From assembly GCA_002726275.1 (NCBI GenBank), contig PBSO01000005.1:2283-47696 (forward strand): 45,414 bases of DNA, in the 5' to 3' direction. The notes below the pieces were generated by a model. It saw only the letters and a program-made list of their open reading frames with translations. It was not told the DNA's origin and made no database searches. Made by a program: the position numbers and the translations under genes. Shown here piece after piece: positions 29,107-32,587 of this stretch. The DNA comes from Methanobacteriota archaeon (lineage in GTDB: Archaea; Thermoplasmatota; Poseidoniia; Poseidoniales; Thalassarchaeaceae). Every line of letters begins with the position of its first letter. The first letter of the stretch is position 1.

Positions 29107-30702
29107 ATGGCAAAGCACCGTGCGGGGGACCGTAGGATAATCAGCATCAGCATACCAGAGGAGACGGCGAGGAAGCTAGACAGGAAAGTCGGCAAGGGAA
29201 TGAAGAAGGGGAGGTCCGCCACAATCGCTAGGATGATCGAGCAGGGTCTATCGCATGACACCAGCGCCCCTGTAGACGAGAACCCGCCTCAGAGATCAGC
29301 TAGGGCGGACCCTGATTCATACCGCACAGAGAAAGACACCATGGGGGAAATCGACGTTCCCTCAGATAGGTACTATGGGGCGCAGACTGCTCGTTCGCTC
29401 GTTAATTTTGACATTGGCGAGGACACGATGCCTAGATCAATCATCAGGGCCTTCGGCATACTCAAGGGCGCGGCTGCGAAGACCAACGTAGACTTGGAAC
29501 AGCTGGACTCAGAGATAGGTGCCCTGGTGATTTCTGCGTGCGAGGAAGTAATTTCTGGGACTCTGGACGAGCACTTCCCACTCAGGGTATGGCAAACAGG
29601 GTCGGGCACTCAGACCAATATGAATTCGAACGAGGTCATTGCAAACAGGGCAATAGAGCTAGCAGGGGGTGTACTTGGAAGCAAATCGCCCGTCCACCCG
29701 AACGATCACGTCAACAGGGCCCAGTCAAGCAACGATACCTTTCCCACAGCCATGCACATAGCCGCAGCCGAGGAGATCAGTCACAGACTCCTCCCTGCCG
29801 TGTCGCACATGAGGGAGGCTCTCTCTGCCAAGTCAGCAGAGTTCTCCAAGATAGTGAAGATCGGGAGGACGCACCTCATGGATGCAGTCCCACTCACATT
29901 GGGCCAGGAGTTTTCAGGATACGTCTCAATGTTGGACTCGGACATCCGTAGAATAGAGGCTTCCCTGCAGGACCTGTTTGAGCTGGCACTGGGAGGGACC
30001 GCAGTCGGTACCGGCCTGAACACCCATCCGGACTTCTCCGAGCAGGTCGCAGCAAGGATTGCCCAGAAAACGGGTTTGCCATTCGTCAGTGCGGATAATA
30101 AATTCGCACAACTAGCTGCCCATGACGCATTGGTTGCCGCATCTGGGACTCTAAACACATTGGCGGCATCACTGATGAAGATAGCAAACGACATCAGATG
30201 GCTGGGCTCTGGACCGAGATGTGGATTCGGAGAACTATCCCTTCCTGCTAACGAACCAGGGTCAAGTATTATGCCGGGGAAGGTAAACCCGACCCAGTCA
30301 GAGGCCATGACAATGGTCTGCTGTCAGGTCATGGGGAACCACACCGCCATCACCATCGGGGGCAGCCAGGGTAACTTCGAGCTTAACGTGTACAAGCCAA
30401 TGATGGTTCACAACATACTCCATTCCGTGAGGATACTCTCTGACACCTGCAGATCATTCACTGACAAGTGTGTAAAGGGGCTGGAGGCAAATGAGGACAA
30501 GATTGCTTCACACCTGGAGAATTCGTTGATGCTGGTCACAGCGCTAAACCCGCACATAGGATACGACAACGCAGCCAAGATAGCCAAGAACGCACATAAG
30601 AAGGGACTCACTCTGAGGCAGAGCGCATTGGAACTAGGGCTTCTTACCGATGAGCAGTTTGACGAGTGGGTCAGACCAGAATCGATGACAGGGCACGCAT
30701 AG
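29107..30702 (+). CDS. fumC: Class II fumarate hydratase with fused N-terminal ribbon-helix-helix domain
   Basis: A 531-residue protein. Residues 9-49 read as a CopG-type ribbon-helix-helix domain: strand RRIISISIP, helix [11 protein letters not shown], then [14 protein letters not shown]. After a Pro/Ser linker, class II fumarase begins at [19 protein letters not shown] (71-89). It contains [18 protein letters not shown], the HPNDHVN and SSND blocks and the signature [16 protein letters not shown]. The enzyme interconverts fumarate and malate in the TCA cycle. Between residues 50 and 78 there is no ATG, GTG or TTG in frame, while the fumarase core needs residues from about 71. The fusion is therefore real in this sequence unless there is a frame error. 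Confidence 0.93.
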
Positions 30703-30754
30703 AGTGACCTAACTCCCAGAAAATTATTGTTTGAATGGGCCATAAAGGGGTGGG

Positions 30755-30870
30755 AGCAGCAGGGGGTTCTGCTTGGGGAAGCTTTCCCCCCTGCGTACTC
30801 CGCAGGGTCCGGTTCCTCCTAGTCAGACTAGGATTTCCCGGGTAGACGACTCTGGGACCACTGGGGTCCC
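30755..30870. other. Five consecutive perfect hairpins after fumC
   Basis: Within 116 bp there are five perfect stem-loops: AGCAG/CTGCT at 30755-30773; GGGGAA/TTCCCC around GCT at 30775-30789; and CCCTGCG/CGCAGGG around TACTC at 30789-30807. The fourth is TCCTAGT/ACTAGGA around CAG at 30817-30833, and the fifth is GGGACC/GGTCCC around ACTGG at 30854-30870. They lie about 50 bp beyond the fumarase stop on one side and form the 3' part of the candidate minus-strand RNA on the other. Confidence 0.7.
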
Positions 30871-31030
30871 TTCGCCATTTTTCTGGACGTTTGGGTAATA
30901 TCCCCCCGGAGGATCGCTCCCCCGTCGCCCTTCTCGATTCCCTCCGTGGCTATTATCACCATTTTGTTTCTCGATCGGTACCGGTCCTCCACGGGTCTCC
31001 CCGCTCTTGTTCCCGGTGTGTTTCCCTCGA

Positions 31031-31058
31031 GCTTCCTTCCCCTTCCTTGCGTCCGGTT
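31031..31058. repeat. 28-nt direct repeat, copy 1
   Basis: A 28-base stretch beginning GCTTCCTTCC and ending GTCCGGTT on the plus strand. It is identical to copy 2 at 31212-31239, 181 bp away. In the minus-strand sense the unit begins AACCGGACGCAAGGAAGG and contains a GCAA tetraloop-like element. The duplicated element argues for a modular RNA. Confidence 0.85.
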
Positions 31059-31211
31059 CTCTCTACTTTCGTTCCCCACACCCGCTCTCTAGGTTCGTCG
31101 CCATCTCTGACTCTCCCCCTTCTTTCGTGTACCTTCGCAGCATGGTCTCCTGGTACGGTTTGTGTTTTCCCCCCGAAGGGTTCGGTTCCGTTTTCCCCAG
31201 TTTCCCCCCTC

Positions 31212-31239
31212 GCTTCCTTCCCCTTCCTTGCGTCCGGTT
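31212..31239. repeat. 28-nt direct repeat, copy 2
   Basis: The same 28 bases as at 31031-31058. The flanks differ on both sides, so this is a discrete repeated module and not part of a long duplication. Confidence 0.85.
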
Positions 31240-31420
31240 ATCCCCACGTTGGTTCTACTGCCGCCTCCTCGTCCACAGACGATTCGACTTTTCCCCGTTC
31301 ACCTTTCGGATCCCGGTTCTACCTCTCCGACTTTGCGGATCAGTTGTTGTGGCCCGCGGGTTTGCCGAAGCTCCCCCACACCACTCCCCCGGAGCGGCAA
31401 AGTCAACAGGGCAAGCGGCG

Positions 31421-31436
31421 GCAAATAAACCTTTCG
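31421..31436 (-). promoter_or_regulatory. BRE/TATA-like archaeal promoter for the candidate ncRNA
   Basis: On the minus strand the sequence reads CGAAAGGTTTATTTGC. CGAAA followed two bases later by TTTAT is close to the archaeal BRE plus TATA consensus (CGAAAnnTTTATATA) seen at strong promoters. An initiation site about 24 bp downstream would fall near 31400, where the first helix of the candidate RNA begins. Confidence 0.6.
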
Positions 31437-31449
31437 TTATATCACAGTA

Positions 31450-31493
31450 TTACAGTGGAAATATAGGTCTAGAAATGTTAATTTCCACTGTAA
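31450..31493. repeat. 13-bp perfect inverted repeat between propeller gene and ncRNA promoter
   Basis: TTACAGTGGAAAT (31450-31462) and ATTTCCACTGTAA (31481-31493) are perfect reverse complements with 18 bp between them. The element begins 5 bp after the stop codon of the propeller gene in its own direction and ends 14 bp before the BRE-like box. It may be the 3' stem-loop of that mRNA, or an operator for the RNA promoter. Confidence 0.7.
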
Positions 31494-31497
31494 ATTA

Positions 31498-32550
31498 TCA
31501 ACTACGTAGGCCTCTCAGTTTCTTTCTGAGTGCCGCAGAATGATCATCCTCATCTCCTCCGATATCGCCTTCTGCCATCCGCCTTTCTAGAAAATCTGCA
31601 TTAATTGAGAAAATTCTGCCTTTTTCATCTCCTAGAACAACCATCCCTTCTTGATGGGACGAGGCGTTAATTCTGCTTGGATGACTAATTTCTAGACTCT
31701 TCAGTGAATTATCAATTCCATGAATAGAGGTTTTTTCTCCCCAGGAAACTGCCCAAGCACCAATATTTCCTGGCTTCGGAACAATCGCGTCAATATTGCC
31801 GCCGACCTCCTCGTTCCAGCCATCGCTACCTACGGACCCCTCTTCCGTCCCATATACCCAGAAGTCGCCAATAACGGCCAATGACCGCACCGACTCACCA
31901 ACTCCGGGCCAGGACGAACCATGAAGGTCGCTTATCTTCCCATCACTGTGTCCAAACAACACTCCTTCGGCCCCCACTGTCCCAGTGGTTACTGGTGAGT
32001 CAACAGACAGCCCCTTGTGTATCGGCCCCTCATTTATCGTGGCCCTCAGATACCCACATCTCGGCCTTCCCAGGCCCAGAACCACTCCTCCGTGGGAGTG
32101 AGGCCCTAGGAACCAGCACTTCTCCTCGAAGCTCCAGCGGTTCAGAAGGGAGCCTCCTCGATCAAAGGCCCAGAGAGTCGACTCAACATAGTCCGAGACC
32201 TCGATCTCGTAAACAGATGAACAAGCCCAAACAACATCCCCCATGTGAAAAACGTAATCGCTAGACCCTTCGAGCTCCGATTGCCAGAGAACCCCCCCCG
32301 TCTCAACAGAAAGTGAAGAAATGCTAGATGATGAAGCAATAAACAAACCTCCTCCTTCAAGGCAGATGCTAGAAATGGGGCCATCTATGTCGACCTCCCA
32401 GTATTTCTCCCCGGTGGTTGATGACCAGCACATCACCATCCCTTCATGAGAACCGCCAACAATTAGCCCATCCCTGATTACAACAGATGTACAAGCACCC
32501 CCCATGTCACGAACGAAGGAGGCCACAGTGCCTAGGGCCAACGCACTCAT
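31498..32550 (-). CDS. PQQ/WD-like beta-propeller protein
   Basis: A 350-residue protein from ATG 32550; a GTG at 32568 is also in frame. Repeated blade-like motifs are visible: LIVGGSHEGMVMCWSSTTGE, LFIASSSSISSLSVETGGVLW, EGVLFGHSDGKISDL, WVYGTEEGSV and MVVLGDEKGRIFSI. The 'G-x-(V/L)-x-W/A-ETG' pattern is that of PQQ-like or quinoprotein-type propellers, used as interaction surfaces. There is no convincing signal peptide, so it is probably cytoplasmic. The C-terminal 30 residues are acidic then basic. Function unknown. It is located 19 bp downstream of the ncRNA-side promoter region and in tandem with the M32 peptidase. Confidence 0.75.
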   Translation of the reverse strand: MSALALGTVASFVRDMGGACTSVVIRDGLIVGGSHEGMVMCWSSTTGEKYWEVDIDGPISSICLEGGGLFIASSSSISSLSVETGGVLWQSELEGSSDYVFHMGDVVWACSSVYEIEVSDYVESTLWAFDRGGSLLNRWSFEEKCWFLGPHSHGGVVLGLGRPRCGYLRATINEGPIHKGLSVDSPVTTGTVGAEGVLFGHSDGKISDLHGSSWPGVGESVRSLAVIGDFWVYGTEEGSVGSDGWNEEVGGNIDAIVPKPGNIGAWAVSWGEKTSIHGIDNSLKSLEISHPSRINASSHQEGMVVLGDEKGRIFSINADFLERRMAEGDIGGDEDDHSAALRKKLRGLRS

Positions 32551-32587
32551 GACCCCTCTCGGGGACACGGCTCTTTCGTGCTTCCGC

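Follow-up and report, generated by a model that had tools for sequence, protein, structure and literature searches.

A large structured non-coding RNA between a propeller gene and fumC in marine Poseidoniales archaea

Large RNAs and a candidate archaeal counterpart

The closest described systems to the RNA discussed in this article are the large ornate RNAs of bacteria and phages, among which OLE measures 577 nt, ROOL 659 nt and many GOLLD RNAs more than 800 nt, and the functions of which are poorly understood (PMC12286853). The archaeal RNA resembles all three in its size and its extensive covarying structure, and in GOLLD, too, a terminal region is conserved and another region varies (PMC12286853). 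Unlike them, it lies on an archaeal chromosome at one fixed locus, and it would not be counted among them since a scan with all Rfam families gave no match, assuming that their models are in Rfam 15. It does have the features by which a large ornate ncRNA is described, namely a length of more than about 400 nt, a non-coding nature, extensive covarying structure and a promoter of its own. We know of no archaeal RNA of such sort that has been described, and we present this one as a candidate archaeal parallel to OLE, ROOL and GOLLD: lineage-specific, with a conserved promoter and with core-and-shell evolution.

Marine Group II (the Poseidoniales), in which the RNA occurs, is among the most abundant groups of ocean archaea and is represented here by environmental genomes; three of its families are referred to below as f1 (Ca. 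Thalassarchaeaceae), f2 and f3, and genera by g numbers. The window, meaning the whole stretch of DNA analysed here, comprises 45,414 nucleotides and belongs to contig 5 in a draft genome of 1.24 Mb. Within it, positions 30703-31497 (795 bases), between fumC and a beta-propeller gene, hold no convincing gene and form the longest unassigned stretch by a crude list of gene gaps, in keeping with the initial annotation, which was made from the letters of the sequence and had singled out the only long gene-free stretch as a candidate purine-rich, minus-strand RNA of about 650 nt at 30755-31401 with a BRE/TATA-like box just upstream. The RNA as delimited here (Table 1), its 5' end inferred from the distance to the TATA box and its 3' end from the terminal hairpin that homologues share, lies within about 10 nt of those ends and is nearly the same in size, the minus strand of the locus is indeed 63% purine, and the box was found again in homologues. 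The order propeller-RNA-fumC is conserved in f1 and f2, with fumC convergent in both families.

Table 1. Positions in the window of the RNA, its parts, its upstream elements and the neighbouring genes
Feature	Positions	Strand	Observation
Structured ncRNA, ~655 nt	30747-31402	-	compensatory base changes among homologues of two archaeal families
BRE/TATA-like promoter element, CGAAAGG-TTTATT	31424-31436	-	recurs in homologues
Upstream inverted repeat, TTACAGTGGAAAT-N18-ATTTCCACTGTAA	31450-31493		perfect 13-nt arms, 31450-31462 and 31481-31493
5' core hairpin P1, CCGCUCC/GGAGUGG	31380-31398	-	99% of cells paired, 51 sequences
5' core hairpin P2 and adjoining conserved GCGGGCCACA	31353-31379	-	95% paired
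Two covarying hairpins	31295-31316 and 31263-31288	-	3 double changes on the same branch in several pairs
Closing helix of the first interior domain, 31256-31261/31137-31142	31137-31261	-	domain holds repeat copy 1
Purine-rich repeat copy 1 (AACCGGACGCAAGGAAGGGGAAGGAAGC)	31202-31255	-	
Purine-rich repeat copy 2	31021-31074	-	83% identical to copy 1, 54 nt
Interior hairpin	30991-31004	-	strong covariation
Hairpin domain closed by invariant CUACCCGG	30809-30841	-	97% paired
3' terminal hairpin (3' core), GCGGAGU-(stem)-GCUCCCAC	30751-30804	-	
fumC (fumarase), convergent neighbour	29107-30702	+	Pfam Lyase_1 E 3e-112, FumaraseC_C E 4e-28
Beta-propeller protein (PQQ/WD40-like), upstream neighbour on the strand of the RNA	31498-32568	-	f2 has an ortholog in the same position

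RNase P RNA and SRP RNA are housekeeping structured RNAs of archaea, and the initial annotation had found signatures of neither at the locus. Scanning both strands of 30650-31500, as it had proposed, with covariance models of 4227 Rfam 15 families gave no match at E<=10, and both housekeeping RNAs were located elsewhere in the same genome (RNase P RNA, RF00373, in G000:C16 with E 1e-70; SRP RNA, RF01857, in G000:C21 with 131 bits); they are likewise structured archaeal RNAs and differ from the present one in being encoded separately. C/D and H/ACA guides, tmRNA and introns were rejected as candidates for want of an Rfam match, and so was an archaeal kink-turn RNA of the L7Ae-bound sort, since a simple kink-turn pattern occurs below chance (3.5 per f1 sequence, as against 4.4 in dinucleotide shuffles). 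Elsewhere in this genome, there is a match to the TPP riboswitch (57.8 bits) at L431:1161-1271 (G000:C8), and the genome's longest stretch without a predicted gene, 2,027 bases at L384:8857-10883 (G000:C22), has no Rfam match.

Conserved ends, changing interior and upstream elements

Folded as a single sequence, the minus strand is only mildly more stable than its shuffles (z -1.5, with 2 of 20 shuffles as good; the plus strand gives z +0.1), so the case for structure rests on homologues. For f1, 51 aligned sequences were compared with simulations in which the tree, and each branch's own substitutions, were retained, and we counted pairs that show at least 2 same-branch double changes keeping the pairing, are paired in at least 88% and stack on another such pair; there were 22 stacked pairs, where 80 simulations averaged 0.15-0.4 and never exceeded 2, and 18 pairs with at least 3 same-branch compensatory events, against a simulated mean of about 1. 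This stricter statistic, with the same kind of null, was chosen post hoc, after a more general G-test (average-product correction, tree-based null) had yielded no significant pair in f1, because genus-level clade signal dominates there; of its 100 best-ranked pairs, fewer than a quarter were predominantly Watson-Crick or wobble. The alignment of f2 provides an independent check, with a column-shuffle control that does not preserve neighbouring bases: the 11 sequences of f2 genus g15 support 232 pairs, with 95% of cells paired, and 88 of these are double-change pairs, compared with 16-31 in column-shuffled controls. In the 3' core, 13 of 20 pairs have changes on both sides, a count that averages 5.6 in shuffles and was reached by none of 500.

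Two observations place the RNA on the minus strand: G-U cells exceed A-C cells in the f1 helices (567 versus 111), and the alifold consensus is better by 55 kcal/mol on that strand (-286 versus -230 kcal/mol). The strand given by the initial annotation is thereby confirmed, and its internal repetition takes definite form in the two 54-nt copies of Table 1, while its other structural claims fared unevenly: the many stems it saw do covary in homologues, yet are weakly unusual in the single sequence, and the covariation it proposed to look for exceeds the tree-based null as compensatory change in f1, with support from f2, and is absent from the general G-test.

Both ends of the molecule are kept and the middle is rebuilt between genera, such that two conserved end domains enclose a rapidly changing interior. 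The P1 hairpin is also present in f2 and in genera g3, g5 and g8, as is the 3' core element; the region of P2 and GCGGGCCACA has a matching GGG-containing segment in f2 and g8; and both ends of the RNA hold invariant unpaired segments. Towards the 3' end, the domain at 30809-30841 changes from CCGG/CCGG to CCAG/CUGG in genus g11. Within the interior, the helix that closes the first domain is 93% paired with 2-4 pair types per pair, and the hairpin at 30991-31004 occurs with GC, CG and AU at alignment columns 405-412 and with GC, AU and UA at 406-411, each with 3 same-branch events. The purine-rich repeat varies in copy number, being present twice here and with additional copies in genus g9 (e.g., L046).

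Upstream, f1 homologues have a GAAAGGTTTAT-like box 20-30 nt ahead of the first conserved hairpin, and AAAGTTTAT is the TATA-like box of the f2 homologues. Further upstream, half-sites resembling the arms of the inverted repeat (CAGTGGAAA and TTTCCRSTG, one mismatch allowed) are found together in 67 of 73 homologues (~92%) from f1, g8 and f2, with a spacing in f1 of about 29 nt; of windows of 140 nt drawn at random, 0.6% have both. Within the genome, the exact 13-nt arm is confined to this locus, and it is possible, judging from these sequences, that a dedicated regulator acts through the element. We did consider a regulon built on a palindromic operator of this kind, and rejected it: the genome holds 7 matches, compared with 4 for scrambled palindromes.

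Taken as evidence from sequence, these results establish what appears to be a conserved, independently transcribed ncRNA of about 650 nt, whose hairpin domains at the 5' and 3' ends are fixed and whose interior is modular and covaries.

Distribution and a possible earlier sighting

The search for homologues in relatives that the initial annotation had suggested was productive. By blastn the RNA was matched in 46 of 98 related genomes; a covariance model of its 3' 109 nt (R1) gave exactly one match per genome in 88 genomes, all of f1; and a second model (R2) added 41 further genomes, 22 of them f2, extending to the f1 genera g2, g3, g5 and g8 and the f2 genera g15, g17 and g22. Together the two models place the RNA in 129 of the 293 genomes of the class, in all 11 sampled f1 genera and in 3 of 11 f2 genera. 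With both models and strict filters that lose weak matches, it was not found in 21 f3 genomes, and under strict filters of that sort a phylum-wide sample of Thermoplasmatota gave no match outside Poseidoniales.

The f2 copies were found by a degenerate pattern for the 5' hairpin, and those of g15, about 790-840 nt long, carry a TATA box of their own as well as the 3' hairpin seen in f1. Across Poseidoniales the RNA ranges from about 450 to about 1,000 nt, with a distance between the conserved ends of about 565-850 nt in f1, about 450 in g8, about 800 in f2 and near 900 in g3 and g5; in g3 and g8 the interior is strongly diverged and both ends are common with other homologues. In several g3 genomes (L180, L182-L185) the 3' hairpin domain appears twice, about 300-330 nt apart, and terminal domains can therefore be duplicated.

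The propeller gene and fumC are 19-160 bases apart in f2 genera g16, g20 and g21 and in one g13 genome, which leaves no room for the RNA; being missing from several f2 genera, it is therefore not needed by all Poseidoniales, and the genera in which the two genes abut are natural controls without it. The same interval was followed up in f2 genera g12, g13 and g19, where the gaps proved to be protein genes or unrelated sequence. Among the matches listed for a loose 5' pattern in GTDB contigs, most were chance bacterial ones, and the 3' core was present in only 10 archaeal loci of the 80 searched. A viral source was also considered and set aside: one exact scan of viral contigs for the f2 3' core came back empty, and 24 viral contigs that match the looser 5' pattern are without the 3' core.

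Part of this RNA may have been seen before. A 2016 Red Sea study describes Tan1 (Thalassoarchaea ncRNA 1) as an unknown, highly abundant 229-nt ncRNA of Ca. Thalassoarchaea, fifth in the RNA-Seq ranking of that group, with relatives at 75-79% identity, reported from 6 sequences and with a complex structure proposed; it further assigns 93% of archaeal RNA-Seq reads to 13 'intrinsically disordered protein' (IDP) genes (PMC5069720). We see a nearly even chance that Tan1 is the 5' part of the present RNA, in which case only the full length, the family and the locus would be new; this bears on novelty and not on mechanism. The archaeal group is the same, and the first 210-290 nt of our query (about 95 nt of these are promoter region, ahead of where the RNA is inferred to start) agree with other genera at 74-75% by blastn, close to the range given for Tan1. 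Moreover, among the conserved gene-free stretches inspected in a comparison with about half of the genome of a second genus, this one alone had no identified gene; the others were tRNAs or missed protein genes, and a second conserved unknown RNA in the genome was rejected as a candidate on that ground. Against the identity stands length, Tan1 being one third as long as this RNA. The two are alike in belonging to one archaeal group and in showing similar conservation between relatives. The original proposal of a large undescribed archaeal RNA is supported, with the qualification that Tan1 may be a fragment of it; the novelty lies at the level of the RNA family, which is without a catalogued relative, the broad kind being known in bacteria.

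The locus also carries long, spurious Ser/Pro-rich ORFs antisense to the RNA, 30891-31466 (+) and 31007-31543 (+), of 191 and 178 aa, and plus-strand ORFs of 100-290 aa recur in most homologues, stop codons being scarce opposite a purine-rich RNA. In genomes of marine archaea, such ORFs may have been annotated as genes of disordered proteins, and we conjecture that they could be the kind of sequence called 'IDP' genes in the Red Sea study (PMC5069720). Published marine RNA data could be re-read in this light: Tan1, and possibly the 'IDP' genes with their 93% of reads, could be this RNA.

Possible ways of working

The best explanation overall, and one that we regard as rather probable from the analysis as a whole, is a structural RNA that acts in trans, as a scaffold or by self-assembly. 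It would be made from its own TATA promoter under the upstream inverted-repeat element, would accumulate as a stable RNA and would work in the manner of OLE, ROOL and GOLLD RNAs; the core for function or assembly would be formed by the conserved ends, with the variable interior, which appears to gain and lose stems and purine-rich repeats, serving as a spacer or a set of multivalent arms binding protein or other copies of the RNA. More tentatively, and with appreciable doubt, it might be an archaeal counterpart of the ornate RNA particles: in Marine Group II cells, copies of the RNA would join one another, or a single protein (perhaps the neighbouring propeller), to build a large particle whose terminal core is fixed and whose shell evolves rapidly.

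That the RNA instead regulates by titrating a protein, as CsrB or 6S RNA do, with purine-rich motifs sequestering an RNA- or DNA-binding protein and repeat copy number tuning the capacity, seems to us unlikely, even though GGGGAA and AACCG are enriched in f1 (5.1 and 5.6 per RNA, against 1.6 and 1.7 in shuffles) and the repeat does vary in number, with its extra copies in g9. In homologues from f2 and g8, GGGGAA is depleted, so it is not a defining motif of the family; moreover, the entire molecule is structured, and it is the ends that are conserved and not the repeats. On the ground of that depletion, membership among CsrB-type RNAs, with their conserved array of GGA loops, was rejected: the CsrB/RsmZ RNAs are alike in their repeated GGA-rich purine motifs, but they form a bacterial system, and the repeats here are not the conserved part; GGA itself exceeds shuffles modestly in f1 (35 versus 30) and g8 (20 versus 17) and more so in f2 (37 versus 25). 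A large ribozyme would suit the size, the invariant unpaired segments at both ends and the elaborate folding, and yet we think catalysis quite improbable, as no Rfam ribozyme, intron or RNase P matches at E<=10 and the context is neither that of a mobile element nor of an intron. We give very little weight to reading the RNA as a cis-regulatory leader or as an extended 3' UTR belonging to the propeller gene: the RNA does lie just downstream of that gene on its strand, but in homologues a TATA box and the upstream element intervene between the propeller stop and the RNA, and the next gene, fumC, is convergent, leaving nothing to lead. Scarcely any credence attaches, finally, to a protein-coding reading such as the 191-aa plus-strand ORF, which could appeal to the recurrence of antisense ORFs in most homologues; these are accounted for by the scarcity of stop codons in pyrimidine-rich sequence, no Pfam family matches, and each of the 70 indels counted when this sequence was set against 11 congeners is of 1-2 nt, which would shift the frame and thereby exclude coding.

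The convergent neighbour deserves a comment of its own. The fumarase begins with a ribbon-helix-helix-like extension (29107-29270; Pfam RHH_1, E 0.009, a weak match below the curated cut-off), and in several f2 genomes fumarase matches begin only after residue 46-71; on the basis of its sequence, the fumarase of the window could possibly be a fusion of a DNA-binding domain and an enzyme.
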